Shown: piece by piece, positions 1 to 31,818 of the stretch
How positions within the stretch are numbered: the first letter of the stretch is position 1
Layout of the letters: every line of letters starts with the position of its first letter
Virus record (IMG/VR): IMGVR_UViG_3300027704_000093
Coordinates: 1-31,818 of that record
Direction: 5' to 3' (one strand)
Length of the DNA stretch: 31,818 nucleotides
From: a virus
Translations under genes and position numbers: made by a program
The notes under the pieces: model-generated
What the model saw: only the letters and a program-made list of their open reading frames with translations
Databases searched by the model: none
What the model was told of the DNA's origin: nothing

Positions 1-187
1 CAGTAATGAAAGCTATTGTTGAAGTTCCATTCTTTGATGATAGTGCAGTCACTGCTGGAAATTGGGAAGCTGAATTTGGCTATGAAGACGTTTGGAGTAA
101 CGCAAGAGGTTGGCCTAAGTCGGCTGCTTTCCATGAAGGTCGGTTGTATTTTGGTGGATCTAAATCTCGTATCAACACTATATGGGG
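1..187. repeat. Terminal overlap, left copy
   Basis: Identical to 31632-31818 except at base 20 (T against C) and 107 (A against G). Both differences are third-codon, synonymous transitions in the nozzle gene. This is the mark of a circular assembly opened at an arbitrary point inside a gene; a true terminal repeat is less likely because it interrupts a coding sequence. Confidence 0.9.
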
Positions 188-1310
188 TTCCCAAGTAATT
201 GACTTTTTTGACTTCAATGTTGGCACTGGTCTTGCTGATGAAAGCGTTGAGGCAACAATAAACACAAACCAATTAAACAGTATCATTAATTTATTCTCTG
301 GTAATGATTTGAGAATATTTACTACTGGCGCAGAGTTTGCTGTTACTCAGTCCACTGATACGCCAATCACACCTTCATCGTTTTTCGTGCGTCCTCAGAC
401 AAGACTAGGAGCAAAGCCTGGTATTCCGATTGAGGATCTAAACGGCGCCACTCTGTTTATTCAACGACAGGGTAAATCTCTTAATGCTTTTCAGTATGGA
501 GATAGTACGGCGTCTTATCAGGTTCAGCCTTTATCTACTCTAAGCTCTCACCTTTTAAAAACGCCTATAGATATGGCAGCGCGTAGGGCTTCGTCCACAG
601 ATGAATCAGATCGCATATTTATTGTTAATGGTGAAGATGGATCTATGGCTGTATATTCTATCCTGGTAGGGCAGAATGTTATTGCACCAAGTAGGTTTAC
701 AACAGATGGCGAATTTGTTGCTGTGTCTGTTGAGGTTTCAGATGTTTATGTAATTGTAAAAAGAACAATAGATAACCTTCCGCGTTATACGTTAGAAAAA
801 TTTGACGATACTTTTACAACCGATGCCGCCAAAACAAGTGGAGATCCCAATATTTCGGTGACACATCTTAAAGGCGAAACAGTTTCTATAGTTCGTGATG
901 GTCTTGTAGATCCCAATCAAACGGTTCCTTCCAACGGAGTTATAAGCTTTGCAAAGGCCCCAGCAACAACAAGGGGCGGCGAGGTTGGATTAGGTTACAG
1001 CGTTACGGTAAGAACAATGCCTTCTGAGCCAGTGCTATCATCTGGATCTGTTCAAGGTTTTAAAAAACGTATTATCCAGGTCGATGCTCTTGTAAACGAA
1101 ACTCAGAACATGACCATTAACGGACAACTAATTGCATTTAGAAAATTTGGTGAAGATGTACTTGGAAAAGCTGTTGTTCCATTCACGGGCATGAAAACAG
1201 CACATGGATTTTTAGGGTTTAGTCAAACCGGACAGATAACAATAAGCCAGAGCGTACCATTAAAAATGACCGTTCTGGGTCTTGAGTATCGTTTAAGCGT
1301 GGGGAATTAG
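3..1310 (+). CDS. Tail tubular protein B / tail nozzle protein, C-terminal part
   Basis: This is the downstream 60% of a gene that begins at 30743 at the other end of the window. The frame is open through base 3, and the ATG at 6 is an internal methionine, not the start. Joined across the circle the protein is about 732 residues, close to T7 gp12 (794). The family forms the distal nozzle of a short tail, below the gp11-like ring. The motif GWPKSAAFHEGRLYFGG, typical of podovirus nozzle/stabilisation proteins, lies in this part. The remainder is beta-rich without membrane segments, as expected of a structural protein. The gp14-like core gene starts two bases after the stop. Family assignment is from recognisable sequence; the join across the ends is inferred from the terminal overlap. 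Confidence 0.85.
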   Translation, partial: VMKAIVEVPFFDDSAVTAGNWEAEFGYEDVWSNARGWPKSAAFHEGRLYFGGSKSRINTIWGSQVIDFFDFNVGTGLADESVEATINTNQLNSIINLFSGNDLRIFTTGAEFAVTQSTDTPITPSSFFVRPQTRLGAKPGIPIEDLNGATLFIQRQGKSLNAFQYGDSTASYQVQPLSTLSSHLLKTPIDMAARRASSTDESDRIFIVNGEDGSMAVYSILVGQNVIAPSRFTTDGEFVAVSVEVSDVYVIVKRTIDNLPRYTLEKFDDTFTTDAAKTSGDPNISVTHLKGETVSIVRDGLVDPNQTVPSNGVISFAKAPATTRGGEVGLGYSVTVRTMPSEPVLSSGSVQGFKKRIIQVDALVNETQNMTINGQLIAFRKFGEDVLGKAVVPFTGMKTAHGFLGFSQTGQITISQSVPLKMTVLGLEYRLSVGN

Positions 1311-15134: not shown

Positions 15135-15333
15135 GCCTTGGTCTTTGTTTAAACTCGCTGTGGAATAAATCTGTTTCTCTGCATCGTGCCATAGAAAACT
15201 CATATTCCTCCGATATGAGTGGGTAATAGATATCACTTGCTTTGTGACAGGTTGCCATATCTTTAAAGTAGATCTTTGAATGTATCGTATGCTCTTCAAC
15301 ATAGTAAGTTAAAATAAGAACGGCCCAATACAT
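15124..15333 (-). CDS. Small exported protein with two cysteines, 69 aa
   Basis: A 69-residue product at the end of the leftward operon, starting by TAATG overlap with the preceding gene's stop. The hydrophobic N-terminus (MYWAVLILTYYV) is followed by FKDMATCHKASDIYY and a second cysteine in SMARCRETD (C29 and C51). Layout and cysteine positions parallel the plus-strand 56-residue lysis-region protein, suggesting paralogy. It converges on and overlaps the endolysin. Function unknown. The conserved overlap makes it a plausible gene despite small size. Confidence 0.55.
   Translation of the reverse strand: MYWAVLILTYYVEEHTIHSKIYFKDMATCHKASDIYYPLISEEYEFSMARCRETDLFHSEFKQRPRLRP
15199..15219 (-). 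terminator. Possible leftward intrinsic terminator inside the last minus-strand gene
   Basis: CTCATAT (15199-15205) pairs perfectly with ATATGAG (15213-15219) around a 7-base loop. Read on the minus strand the stem is followed by TTTTCTAT. It is A/T-rich and lies inside the 69-codon gene (encoding EEYEF), so any effect would be partial. It is the only terminator-like structure near the convergence of the two transcription units. Confidence 0.3.
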
Positions 15334-16918: not shown

Positions 16919-17400
16919 TTGATCCTCACTGTTATTGAAGGTTGACCCATTTGAAACTGACAGCCTGGAACATTCTCGCCTTGATCCATTTGTTTTTTAA
17001 TTGCTGTCATGTCGGGCTTGGTTGTGACTTTTGTTAGCTGCGAGGGAATTTCTGCCTCATCAACTATCTTAACGCCCCATCTGGCTTTGGTTCTACTGAT
17101 TGTAGCCATTGGGTGTTTGACTTTTGTTTCGCCCATAGCGTCTAGTAACTGACCAATCGTAACCGAAATTGCATTTTGCCTGGCAGCTAGTCGTTTTGCT
17201 CTGGTTGAGTAGGTTGCTGCGAGATCTTTCATTGCAACTTCATGCGCAGATGCTTCAGTGCGTTCCTCTACAAGCTTGCCTAGAATATCCATTGCATCTG
17301 TTTCGCCATCTAGCGTATCTAAAAACGTGTCATGATCGTCACCAGTTAACAACCGGATCTGGTCGGCCATATCGCGGATATCCTCAAATTTAATGTACAT
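16915..17400 (-). CDS. Gp157 family protein (recombination-module partner)
   Basis: A 161-residue helical protein of the Siphovirus Gp157 family. Recognisable features are the N-terminal DMADQ..LLTGDDHDTFLDTLDGE, a long central coiled coil, and the C-terminal beta strands (ATISRTKARWGVKIVDEAEIP, then PSITVRIK). The family commonly sits beside single-strand annealing or SSB genes, as here, and its biochemical role is not firmly established. I choose ATG at 17400, with AAGGGTG upstream, over a GTG nine bases earlier. It overlaps the winged-helix gene by 11 bases and the annealing gene by ATGA. Confidence 0.85.
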   Translation of the reverse strand: MYIKFEDIRDMADQIRLLTGDDHDTFLDTLDGETDAMDILGKLVEERTEASAHEVAMKDLAATYSTRAKRLAARQNAISVTIGQLLDAMGETKVKHPMATISRTKARWGVKIVDEAEIPSQLTKVTTKPDMTAIKKQMDQGENVPGCQFQMGQPSITVRIK

Positions 17401-27786: not shown

Positions 27787-28040
27787 ATACACCCGAAGGA
27801 TGGGAGGGGTTAATCCAGGCTGAACGTGAAGCACCGAGAGCCGATGATCTTGATATGATATACGGCAAAGTATTTAAAAGTGCTGAAGGCCAAAAAGTAT
27901 TAAGTCACTTAAGAAGTATAACAATAGAACAACCGACTTGGTTTCCAGGAGAAGATGCAAGTTTTGGTTATGCTAGAACAGGTATGGCTGAAATTATTCG
28001 CATGATTGAAAAAAAAATAGAAAGGTCAAACAATGGCTGA
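27783..28040 (+). CDS. Bbp19-like small protein
   Basis: An 85-residue protein coupled by ATGA to the portal. The stretch GQKVLSHLRSITIEQPTWFP followed by GEDASFGYARTGMAEIIRMI is the diagnostic pattern of Bbp19-like phage proteins, usually encoded between portal and scaffold. Helical, no membrane segment. Likely an assembly factor or minor head component; its exact role is not established. It overlaps the scaffold gene by eight bases. Confidence 0.8.
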   Translation: MNTPEGWEGLIQAEREAPRADDLDMIYGKVFKSAEGQKVLSHLRSITIEQPTWFPGEDASFGYARTGMAEIIRMIEKKIERSNNG

Positions 28041-28797
28041 AGAAATGGCTGCAACAGAACCCCAGGCTAACGCCCCAATGATAAATGTAACAGAACCGGA
28101 AGCGCCCAGCGCAGAGGCTCCGATTGCTGTTCACGAAAAAACAGAAGAAGAAGTTCAAGCCTCACAGGAAGATGATGTTCAATTAGAGCGTCCTGATTAT
28201 TATCCAGAGAAATTTTGGGATGAGGACGGCCCTGATGTTGAAAAGCTTGCAAAAAGTTATGCAGAACTTGAGAAGAAATTTAAATCTGGCAAACATAAGG
28301 CGCCAGATGAGTACGATGTATCTGGCCTTTCGGATCAAGGTCTGGATGCGGAAGACCCAACTGTTTCAGTATATCAGGAGTGGGCTAAAGAAAATGGAAT
28401 TAGCCAGGACGCTTTCGAGGATCTGGCCTCGCGTGTACTTGCTCTATCTAAGCAAGAACAGGAAGGCATGGAGTATGATCAGCGCGTTGAAATGGAAAAG
28501 CTCGGTAAGAACGGACAAGAAAAAATCCAAATGGTAGAGAGAAACTTAATGAAAGTTCCTTTAACAAACTCAGAGCGTGAGGCATTAGCTGGATCTTTAA
28601 ATAATGCTGATGCTATTAATGCGTTTGTAAAATACCATCAATCTCTTACAAATGAAAACATTCCTATAACTCCTGTTGTTAACAAACCAGAAATGACAAA
28701 AGAGGATCTTGAGTCAGCAATTTCTGATCCTCGATGGAAAACTGATGCGCCCTGGAGAACCAAGATTGAGAACCAGTGGATGCAAGCAAACTCTTAG
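28033..28797 (+). CDS. Capsid assembly scaffolding protein
   Basis: A 254-residue acidic protein. The first 60 residues are Glu/Pro/Ala-rich and disordered. Then YYPEKFWDEDGPDVEKLAKSY leads into a segment (APDEYDVSGL) frequent in T7-like scaffolds, and a helical C-terminus (residues about 125-250) for coat binding. It would guide coat assembly into proheads and then leave. Placed directly before the coat gene, as in T7 (gene 9 then 10). A 168-bp structured leader separates it from the coat start. Confidence 0.88.
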   Translation: MAEEMAATEPQANAPMINVTEPEAPSAEAPIAVHEKTEEEVQASQEDDVQLERPDYYPEKFWDEDGPDVEKLAKSYAELEKKFKSGKHKAPDEYDVSGLSDQGLDAEDPTVSVYQEWAKENGISQDAFEDLASRVLALSKQEQEGMEYDQRVEMEKLGKNGQEKIQMVERNLMKVPLTNSEREALAGSLNNADAINAFVKYHQSLTNENIPITPVVNKPEMTKEDLESAISDPRWKTDAPWRTKIENQWMQANS

Positions 28798-28800
28798 GGC

Positions 28801-28829
28801 TTGTAATAAATCTCGCTTGCGTGTATTTT
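28801..28829 (+). promoter_or_regulatory. Possible promoter for the coat gene
   Basis: TTGTAA (28801-28806) and TATTTT (28824-28829), 17 bases apart, form a modest sigma70-like promoter at the start of the gap before the coat gene. It overlaps the 5' strand of the long stem in the proposed RNA leader, so the two readings partly compete. Confidence 0.35.
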
Positions 28830-28905
28830 AACTTCAACGGTTAACCGCGCTCGGCCCGTTAAATGTAGTAATCTACTGGCTGGCGCTGCCATAATGCGCA
28901 AGCGG
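28813..28905 (+). ncRNA. Structured leader RNA before the coat gene (four-way junction predicted by eye)
   Basis: Bases 28813-28824 pair with 28894-28905 (core CGCTTGCG/CGCAAGCG, 12 pairs with three G-U). Inside are three hairpins: AACGG/CCGTT (28836-28840 with 28856-28860, with an inner CCG/CGG), GTAG/CTAC (28865-28868 with 28873-28876) and TGGC/GCCA (28877-28880 with 28888-28891). The region is unusually GC-rich compared with flanking genes and non-coding in all frames that matter. It may be a cis-acting mRNA leader, a packaging or processing signal. It lacks tRNA loop features. Confidence 0.45.
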
Positions 28906-28950
28906 ATCGCCCGAATATCGGATAACGGATCGCGTTTTGTCGAAACTCAA

Positions 28951-28965
28951 TAGGAGGTATCTGCA
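28951..28965 (+). promoter_or_regulatory. Strong Shine-Dalgarno (AGGAGGT) for the coat gene
   Basis: AGGAGGT at 28952-28958 is a complete anti-16S match, seven bases before ATG 28966, the best ribosome-binding site in the window. It fits the need for hundreds of coat copies per virion. Confidence 0.85.
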
Positions 28966-29799
28966 ATGGCGCAGAACGTCACAGCGGCGTTTGTTACCCT
29001 GTTCGATTCAGAGGTTAAGCAAGCGTATCAAGCCGAGTCACTACTTCGTGGTACAATGCGTACACGCACGGGTGTGGCTGGTAATACTGTTAAATTTCCA
29101 AAAATTGGAAAAGGAGTTGCTACTGTTCGCATTCCGCAGACAGACGTAACACCATTAAACGTAACCTATAGTCAGGTCACTGCAACAATGTCTGATTTCA
29201 TTGCTGCTGAATATTCTGACATATTCCAACAGTCGCACATCAATTTTGATGAGCGTTCAGAATTGGTTCAAGTTGTATCAAAATCTATTGCTCGTCGTAT
29301 GGACCAGCTTTGCATTGATGCTTTTGTTGGCAATGCTGGATCAACTGTTGCTAATACAGTGGGACCAGGTGGTGCTACAAACATGAACATTGAAAAGCTT
29401 CGTGCTACTTCTAAAGCAATGAATGCTAAAAATGTTCCAGCCGAAGGCCGTTTTCTGCTAATGAACTCATCACAGCTTGATGCTTTGCTGGGCGAAACAG
29501 AGATCACCAGCCAGGACTTTGCTTCCGTAAAGGCTCTTGTTCGTGGAGAAATCAACACGTTCATGGGTTTCACTATCCTCTCTATGGGTGATCGTGACGA
29601 AGGCGGCGTTCCAAAGCCAGGTACACGTTCGTGTTTTGCTTGGCATAAAGACTCAATGGGCTACGCTGAATCAATGTCTCAGAAAACAGAAGTGAACTAT
29701 GTACCAGAAAAAACATCTTTCTTGGTAAGCTCAATGTTCTCCGCTGGCTCTGTTGCCATTGATGGTGAAGGCATTGTCCAAATCAACTGTACTGAATAG
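28966..29799 (+). CDS. Major capsid protein
   Basis: A 277-residue coat protein of the HK97-fold type used by T7-like podoviruses. It opens MAQNVTAAFVTLFDSEVKQA, with TGVAGNTVKFPKIGKG (loop/N-arm region), SQVTATMSDFIAAEYSDIFQ and a C-terminal YVPEKTSFLVSSMFSAGSVA. T7 gp10A has 345 residues, so this is somewhat short but within range for marine podoviruses. It follows the scaffold and is followed by a putative decoration gene and a strong terminator. No sign of a T7-type frameshift product at its end. Confidence 0.92.
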   Translation: MAQNVTAAFVTLFDSEVKQAYQAESLLRGTMRTRTGVAGNTVKFPKIGKGVATVRIPQTDVTPLNVTYSQVTATMSDFIAAEYSDIFQQSHINFDERSELVQVVSKSIARRMDQLCIDAFVGNAGSTVANTVGPGGATNMNIEKLRATSKAMNAKNVPAEGRFLLMNSSQLDALLGETEITSQDFASVKALVRGEINTFMGFTILSMGDRDEGGVPKPGTRSCFAWHKDSMGYAESMSQKTEVNYVPEKTSFLVSSMFSAGSVAIDGEGIVQINCTE

Positions 29800-30742: not shown

Positions 30743-31818
30743 ATGCGCGTTGTTCAATTCCAAACCAACTTCTCGGTGGGTGAACTTGATCCTTTAGTTC
30801 GTGCGCGTACTGATCTCCAGCAATATAAAAATGCTTTAGAAGAAGCTACAAATGTAGTTATTCAGCCGCAAGGTGGCTTTAAGCGCAGACCTGGCCTTAA
30901 GTTTATTAAAGACTTTGACAATGTGTTTCAAGTTTTTAAAATTATTCCTTTTGAATTTAGCGTCACGGATACTTATAGTTTAGTTTTTGTAAATCAAAAA
31001 ATCTTTGTTTTTAAAGCTGGCGTTCAGATATTAAATTTTAATGGCGGCACTGATGATTTCATTGCAGCGCCTGATATTACAGCGGCAATGTTAGATGAAA
31101 TTAATTATACTCAGGCAGTAGACACTCTTATTCTTTGCCATGAGGATTTGCAGACCAAGCGATTAATTAGAAATGCTGATAATAATTGGACATTAGAAAA
31201 CTTACCATTAAAAAATGTGCCTCAATATCCGTTTGCTCTGACAACTCACAGCCCTACGTTTTCAATAACACCATCTGCAATTACTGGAAATATTACTATA
31301 ACAGCAAGTGCCGCAACAACAGACACAGGCAGCGCACAAGCTGGTTCGGCAAACACAATTACATTAAAGTCAGGAAGTTCATTCTCCGCAAATGACCAGG
31401 CTAATGGAATGTTTGTTAAGATTACATCTGGCACTGGCGCCGGTCAGGTTCGTCAAGTTTTAGATTATGTCGGTTCTTCAAAGGTTCTTACTGTCTTTCC
31501 AGCATGGACCACAGCACCGAATAGTGGATCTAGTTATTCTGTTAACCCATTTGAGCCTGATGCGGTTGGCGGATACGCTCAAGTTACAAGTACGTTTGGG
31601 AGAGTTCGTTACGTTGAGTTTGTTTCAAACACAGTAATGAAAGCTATTGTCGAAGTTCCATTCTTTGATGATAGTGCAGTCACTGCTGGAAATTGGGAAG
31701 CTGAATTTGGCTATGAAGACGTTTGGAGTAACGCAAGGGGTTGGCCTAAGTCGGCTGCTTTCCATGAAGGTCGGTTGTATTTTGGTGGATCTAAATCTCG
31801 TATCAACACTATATGGGG
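30743..31818 (+). CDS. Tail tubular protein B / tail nozzle protein, N-terminal part (runs off the window)
   Basis: An open frame of 358 codons from ATG 30743 to the window end. It opens MRVVQFQTNFSVGELDPLVR, then GGFKRRPGLKFIKDF, the standard N-terminus of podovirus nozzle proteins. The final 187 bases repeat the start of the window, where the gene continues to 1310. At 31637 the frame meets the ATG at base 6 in register, giving a 732-residue product. It forms the distal tail tube. Partial only because of where the circle was opened. Confidence 0.9.
   Translation, partial: MRVVQFQTNFSVGELDPLVRARTDLQQYKNALEEATNVVIQPQGGFKRRPGLKFIKDFDNVFQVFKIIPFEFSVTDTYSLVFVNQKIFVFKAGVQILNFNGGTDDFIAAPDITAAMLDEINYTQAVDTLILCHEDLQTKRLIRNADNNWTLENLPLKNVPQYPFALTTHSPTFSITPSAITGNITITASAATTDTGSAQAGSANTITLKSGSSFSANDQANGMFVKITSGTGAGQVRQVLDYVGSSKVLTVFPAWTTAPNSGSSYSVNPFEPDAVGGYAQVTSTFGRVRYVEFVSNTVMKAIVEVPFFDDSAVTAGNWEAEFGYEDVWSNARGWPKSAAFHEGRLYFGGSKSRINTIW
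31632..31818. repeat. Terminal overlap, right copy
   Basis: Same 187 bases as the start of the window, with C at 31651 and G at 31738 where the left copy has T and A. Removing one copy leaves a circle of about 31,631 bp. Confidence 0.9.

Follow-up and report, generated by a model that had tools for sequence, protein, structure and literature searches.

Compensatory changes point to a conserved four-hairpin RNA leader upstream of the major capsid protein gene in marine podoviruses

The non-coding gap in front of the major capsid protein (MCP) gene of a marine podovirus almost certainly encodes, on comparative evidence, a genuine conserved structured RNA. The window analyzed here, a virus record of 31,818 bases, carries the genes for terminase, a head-tail connector, and a scaffold-like protein, followed by the gap, the MCP gene, and the tail tubular genes. 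The gap itself is 168 nt long (28798-28965) and separates the scaffold-like gene (28033-28797) from the MCP gene (28966-29799, + strand; phrog_3437 major head protein, E 2.5e-54). Since the MCP gene and the genes downstream of it all lie on the + strand, up to about 15,134 after wrapping, the gap stands at the head of a late unit of ~18 kb. With regard to the wrapping, near-identical parts of the gene for tail tubular protein B are encoded at both ends of the window (1-198 and 31625-31818), and the contig ends therefore overlap; the molecule is probably circular or has terminal redundancy, the two copies differing slightly. An earlier note on this DNA had proposed a structured RNA leader before the capsid gene and suggested covariance analysis as the check; the compensatory changes described below strongly support that proposal, exceeding what relatedness and column make-up would produce, as is characteristic of a selected, structured cis RNA. 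Two of its remarks on the setting need adjustment: the gap is GC richer than its surroundings only modestly (48%, versus 42% genome-wide and 43% in the flanks), and it is not the longest non-coding stretch, being exceeded by the convergent interval 15135-15332.

Relatives were drawn from three sources, namely at least 80 IMG/VR loci retrieved by MCP, with MCPs 81-90% identical (group A); MEP301, whose MCP is about 61% identical, plus at least 80 further loci (group B); and at least 80 Baldr-type pelagiphage loci (group C). Nearly all intact group A gaps measure 166-185 nt and are visibly conserved. The conserved fold consists of four consecutive hairpins on the + strand, S1, S3, S4, and S5. 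Hairpin S1 (28836-28860) comprises an outer stem (28836-28840/28856-28860), whose compensatory changes include CG, GC, AU, and UG at one pair, and an inner stem (28845-28847/28852-28854), with an internal loop of UUAA (28841-28844) opposite a single C (28855). Hairpin S3 (28865-28876), GUAG-UAAU-CUAC, is 100% paired in alignment A1 (47 group A leaders, plain MAFFT), with double changes in three of its four pairs, and S4 (28883-28899), GCGC...GCGC, is paired in 99% of cells with GC-to-AU and CG-to-UA compensations. Hairpin S5 (28907-28928) has an outer stem (28907-28909/28926-28928) and an inner stem (28911-28914/28918-28921), shows CG-to-UA and GC-to-CG compensations, and carries the S1 loop with the strands swapped, a single C (28910) lying opposite AUAA (28922-28925). 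The CCGA-ATA-TCGG hairpin at 28911-28921 described in the earlier note is exact and is also conserved in relatives. The repeated CGGATCGC to which the same note drew attention does occur twice (28903-28910 and 28926-28933, one base away from where it had been placed) and is not kept in relatives. Near-invariant in groups A and B is the segment GCAAGC (28898-28903); additional pairs modeled by RNAalifold suggest that its GC may pair with the GC 3' of S5 (about 28932-28933), lengthening that hairpin.

Several independent counts show that the pairing is maintained by matched changes. In alignment A1, 96.5% of cells in the S1-S3-S4-S5 fold are paired and both partners have changed in 11 of the 25 pairs; of 500 shuffles not one was as good, and sliding the partners by 1-3 columns reduced pairing to 21-36%. 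A combined alignment of 53 leaders pairs in 94.4% of cells, with double changes in 20 of 25 pairs and 336 double-change cells versus 105 expected from shuffling; this alignment was fitted to the model, and a parsimony count of events on the MCP tree was hence added, yielding at least 102 double-change events versus 7-11 for slid partners. Given no structure at all, RNAalifold recovered the S1-S5 fold from alignment A1 and, from a MAFFT alignment of group B, S1, S3, S4, and the innermost two pairs of S5, with 13 of 18 pairs compensated. In addition, G-U cells outnumber A-C cells on the + strand by 25 to 5, which argues for + strand RNA rather than DNA symmetry.

The shape drawn in the earlier note, a four-way junction or cloverleaf closed by a 12-pair stem, gave way to this row of four hairpins. 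The stem (28813-28824/28894-28905; here P1) is present in the window, with three G-U pairs, and is mostly retained in the minimum free energy (MFE) fold; it is not a conserved feature, only 2-5 of its 12 pairs being formed in L025, L052, L054, L071, and L077, and its 3' arm overlaps the covarying hairpin S4, with which it competes. Its 5' arm (28813-28824, + strand) is promoter-spacer DNA, so a transcript from the predicted promoter would lack it. Viewed simply as an inverted repeat, P1 joins the promoter spacer with the S4/GCAAGC segment; its pairing is kept in many close relatives, and in one relative (L046) matched changes occur on both arms. When transcription reads through from the scaffold gene, P1 may form in the resulting RNA; alternatively, it may reflect a DNA repeat or DNA binding. 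A tRNA, tmRNA, or tRNA-like cloverleaf was also considered and set aside, as neither ARAGORN nor Rfam found one in the window.

Folding energy told a different story from covariation. An energy no better than that of shuffled sequence, which the earlier note had counted against a structured element, is exactly what was found: the gap has an MFE of -48.9 (z -0.87; 34 of 200 shuffles equally good), the minus strand is likewise unremarkable (z -1.15), and stability z-scores of the core are near zero in groups A, B, and C. Because the element nevertheless appears real, comparison with shuffled sequence is a poor test in this case. The conserved core fold is, moreover, not the MFE structure (-17.1 versus -29.9 kcal/mol), which together with the z-scores near zero indicates that selection acts on a specific shape; what stabilizes that shape is presumed to be folding during transcription, tertiary contacts, or a partner. 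As a general lesson, RNA folds under strong selection can be missed, and also misdrawn, when they are judged by the folding energy of a single sequence.

The most distinctive part of the fold is the asymmetric internal loop carried by both S1 and S5, in which a single C faces the four nucleotides NNNA; the two hairpins carry these strands in opposite order, and G-C pairs usually flank the loop. NNNA variants include UUAA, CUAA, AUAA, and CAUA, among others. In group C the two hairpins are both oriented like S5, and covariation is seen again in the outer stem of S1, where position 2 pairs in all 22 distinct stems (100%) versus 45% with shuffled partners, as read by direct stem parse because MAFFT misregisters group C stems. 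Because loop sequence is conserved along with pairing, the twin loops probably serve for recognition or tertiary packing.

In every confident member the MCP gene lies downstream of the RNA element. Model R1, a covariance model built from group A only, finds MEP301-type group B leaders exactly at the MCP-leader position with E-values down to 1.7e-10 and matches the leader of Vibrio phage CKB-S2, a two-hairpin form of 73 nt, marginally (E 0.015), E-values of the models built here being rough. Leaders with twin loops are also seen in Baldr/HTVC010P-like pelagiphages and in certain further podoviruses, in each case before the MCP gene. By eye and motif finder, the loop was seen in the MCP leaders of Manatee Spring podovirus and a relative, in contigs L301, L302, and L304 from metagenome-assembled genomes (MAGs), and in HTVC010P, HTVC035P, HTVC100P, HTVC203P, and Lederberg; model R2 independently recovers L304, L302, and L303. 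All 72 matches to the group C pattern in IMG/VR precede the MCP gene, by 58-101 nt; loci that match A-type or other patterns but lack MCP were not significantly matched by R2, and a scan for the pattern CGGCCC..GGCATACCG returned one real match, which is another MCP leader. The element is single copy in the window and in MEP301. A candidate second copy at 17318-17391 on the minus strand (E 0.31) is unconvincing, as it falls inside coding sequence.

Toward the edges of this distribution the signal thins. Upstream of MCP, the Autographiviridae CRP-804 and CRP-403 have single C/NNNA hairpins, and looser single hairpins lie there in HTVC031P, HTVC168P, Himinglaeva, and RHEph01; with about 16% of shuffled windows yielding at least one motif match, these single-hairpin cases are no more than suggestive. 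The twin loop was not clearly seen in the gaps before MCP in Dunaliella virus SI2 and HTVC028P. In several Vibrio phages whose MCPs are related (L085, L091, L092, and L176), a single long plain hairpin beside promoter-like sequence takes the place of the element. In Rhizobium phage RHEph01 a tRNA-Asn gene lies within the gap upstream of MCP (L580:694-764). Two MEP301-type contigs (L140:878-1395 and L175:788-1390) contain several hundred additional non-coding nucleotides, inserted after the scaffold terminator and ahead of the MCP promoter; a portion of about 223 nt is 75% identical between the two. No significant Rfam, phage, or plasmid match to these inserts was found, and they are possibly another structured RNA. 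In HTVC010P, HTVC035P, HTVC100P, HTVC203P, and Lederberg, S1 is located inside a small ORF annotated upstream, or at the end of that ORF. The HTVC010P ORF (L084:1227-1403; AGE60278.1) overlaps S1 of the leader; it and its homologues are situated just before MCP, and the ORF is labeled "tetratricopeptide repeat domain protein" in Skadi phages. The small ORF in HTVC010P may be misannotated or dual use.

The layout of the gap is that of an mRNA 5' leader. A sigma70-type promoter is predicted from the -35-like TTGTAA (28801-28806, + strand; TTGCAA in most relatives) and, after a 17-nt spacer, the -10-like TATTTT (28824-28829, + strand), which would place the transcription start at about 28836, the first base of S1. 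The best sigma70-like -10 ends 6-7 nt before S1 in 22 of 26 group A and 29 of 38 group B leaders. No RNA polymerase was recognized among the larger proteins of the window that were examined. The full AGGAGGT reported previously before MCP was found at 28952-28958 (+ strand), and no consistent or recurrent sequestration of this ribosome-binding site (RBS) is predicted across leaders; its predicted accessibility is moderate (0.11-0.56). Nor was a terminator or attenuator found between S5 and MCP.

The best explanation, which we consider plausible while stopping short of calling it probable, is that the RNA is a cis-acting 5' leader of the capsid/late-structural mRNA that raises mRNA stability, translation, or both. 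Transcription would start at the first base of S1, so that the folded S1-S3-S4-S5 domain opens the message and a spacer with less structure leads on to the Shine-Dalgarno sequence and the MCP start. The domain would fold during transcription and act in cis to yield more capsid, through protection of the 5' end from decay and/or better ribosome loading, in a constitutive role in which the twin loops would serve as recognition or packing sites. On/off regulation is disfavored by the lack of an attenuator after S5 and by an RBS that is not consistently buried, and a constitutive capsid-output role is favored by this lack of on/off features, by the plain hairpin that replaces the element in Vibrio phages, and by the leader hairpin of T7 gene 10. 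The T7 gene 10 (phi10) leader likewise belongs to a podovirus MCP mRNA and, taking the start predicted here, has the same layout, with a hairpin opening at about +1 ahead of an A/U-rich spacer and a strong RBS. The T7 leader, however, has one plain 8-bp hairpin without a C/NNNA loop and uses T7 polymerase, whereas the element described here has four covarying hairpins, twin conserved loops, and a sigma70-type promoter; no homologous sequence or fold links the two. In ompA-type stabilizers a stem-loop at the extreme 5' end hinders 5'-end-dependent decay. The predicted position of S1 is similar, but those elements depend on generic stem stability, in contrast to the near-zero z-scores and conserved loop sequences seen here. 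Indeed, purely thermodynamic protection of the 5' end would not alone require conserved sequence in a non-MFE fold, a protein- or polymerase-binding role would fit the same data, and the RBS accessibility is just moderate, all of which temper a capsid-output function.

One such binding role, which we regard as unlikely but worth weighing, is that of a Put-like processive antiterminator, in which the nascent RNA would bind host RNA polymerase, as HK022-type put RNA does in cis at the beta-prime zinc-binding domain, and cause it to read through terminators or pauses along the ~18-kb late operon. The core of HK022 put RNA (putL/putR) is formed by two stem-loops with functional internal loops in about 70 nt; putL, of about 73 nt, has a fold beginning at transcript nt 3 and binds the zinc-binding domain of RNA polymerase (PMC9378689). 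The element resembles put RNA in being a 5'-proximal cis RNA with two stem-loops, S1 at the predicted +1 and S5 last, at the head of a long operon, and the CKB-S2 form matches putL in length. A strong intrinsic terminator closes the scaffold unit before the MCP promoter in 49 among the 80 group B loci listed, and few terminators were found after MCP in group B. That scarcity also weighs against the proposal, as few strong downstream terminators would need read-through. Furthermore, put RNAs serve early operons rather than a late capsid operon, no sequence-structure match joins them to the element, and a search of the entire HK022 genome with R2 returned nothing at E-values of 10 or below. Similar single hairpins also precede MCP in Autographiviridae, a family whose late genes are transcribed by its own polymerase.

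Alternatively, and with an equally modest claim on belief, the leader could be a translational operator, with a phage protein (MCP, scaffold, or other) binding the twin C/NNNA loops and feeding back on capsid translation. That a sequence-conserved internal loop is present twice hints at two sites for protein, the RNA always adjoins MCP, and its low intrinsic stability would suit a bound partner; however, no recurrent structure covers the RBS, and capsid protein is required in bulk. It is quite improbable that the leader is released as a separate trans-acting or packaging RNA, such as a motor RNA like phi29 pRNA. The domain is compact and conserved, lies beside head genes, and occurs once per genome, but no terminator follows S5, the element is always directly upstream of the MCP RBS, and the window genome encodes a TerS-like Terminase_2 protein, a point on which phi29 packaging systems differ. 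A riboswitch or thermosensor governing capsid expression could be suspected from conserved unpaired residues within a 5' leader and is very improbable, given that no aptamer family in Rfam matches, no attenuator is found, and no alternative fold pairing with the RBS is conserved; the earlier note's view that this is not obviously a known riboswitch thus holds. Finally, a DNA-level operator or recombination site whose inverted repeats merely mimic RNA structure could draw on the P1 repeat spanning the promoter spacer but is scarcely credible against the G-U excess, the asymmetric loops, and the fixed spacing between promoter and S1, which suit RNA.

The element matches no Rfam family (4,227 models): none reached threshold in the window, and the gap itself gave nothing with E up to 5. 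No description of it was found in the open-access papers searched; an earlier account may exist elsewhere. Comparative genomics has previously identified structured RNAs that are likely 5' untranslated regions of marine phage genes, manA, wcaG, and PhotoRC-II (PMC2864571); those RNAs, in contrast, accompany metabolic or photosynthesis genes. A bolder proposal, which we put forward as a rather doubtful possibility, is that paired C/NNNA hairpins constitute a widespread RNA class, ancestral to broad podovirus MCP leaders, that directly recruits a conserved machine. Such a class would span group A, MEP301-type OM43 phages, Baldr/HTVC010P-type SAR11 phages, some Vibrio phages, and the single-hairpin forms of Autographiviridae; if it is real, it would recruit RNA polymerase, ribosome, or capsid protein for late structural genes without a dedicated protein factor.

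How podoviruses that depend on the host polymerase achieve massive capsid synthesis in streamlined marine bacteria has been little studied. This RNA is a precise, conserved, and testable element that accounts for a non-coding gap across hundreds of contigs and suggests that the small annotated ORF upstream of HTVC010P MCP overlaps an RNA structure. Many phages of the ocean share it, among them relatives of the SAR11 phages, which are abundant, and phages of this sort rank with the most abundant viruses of the ocean.
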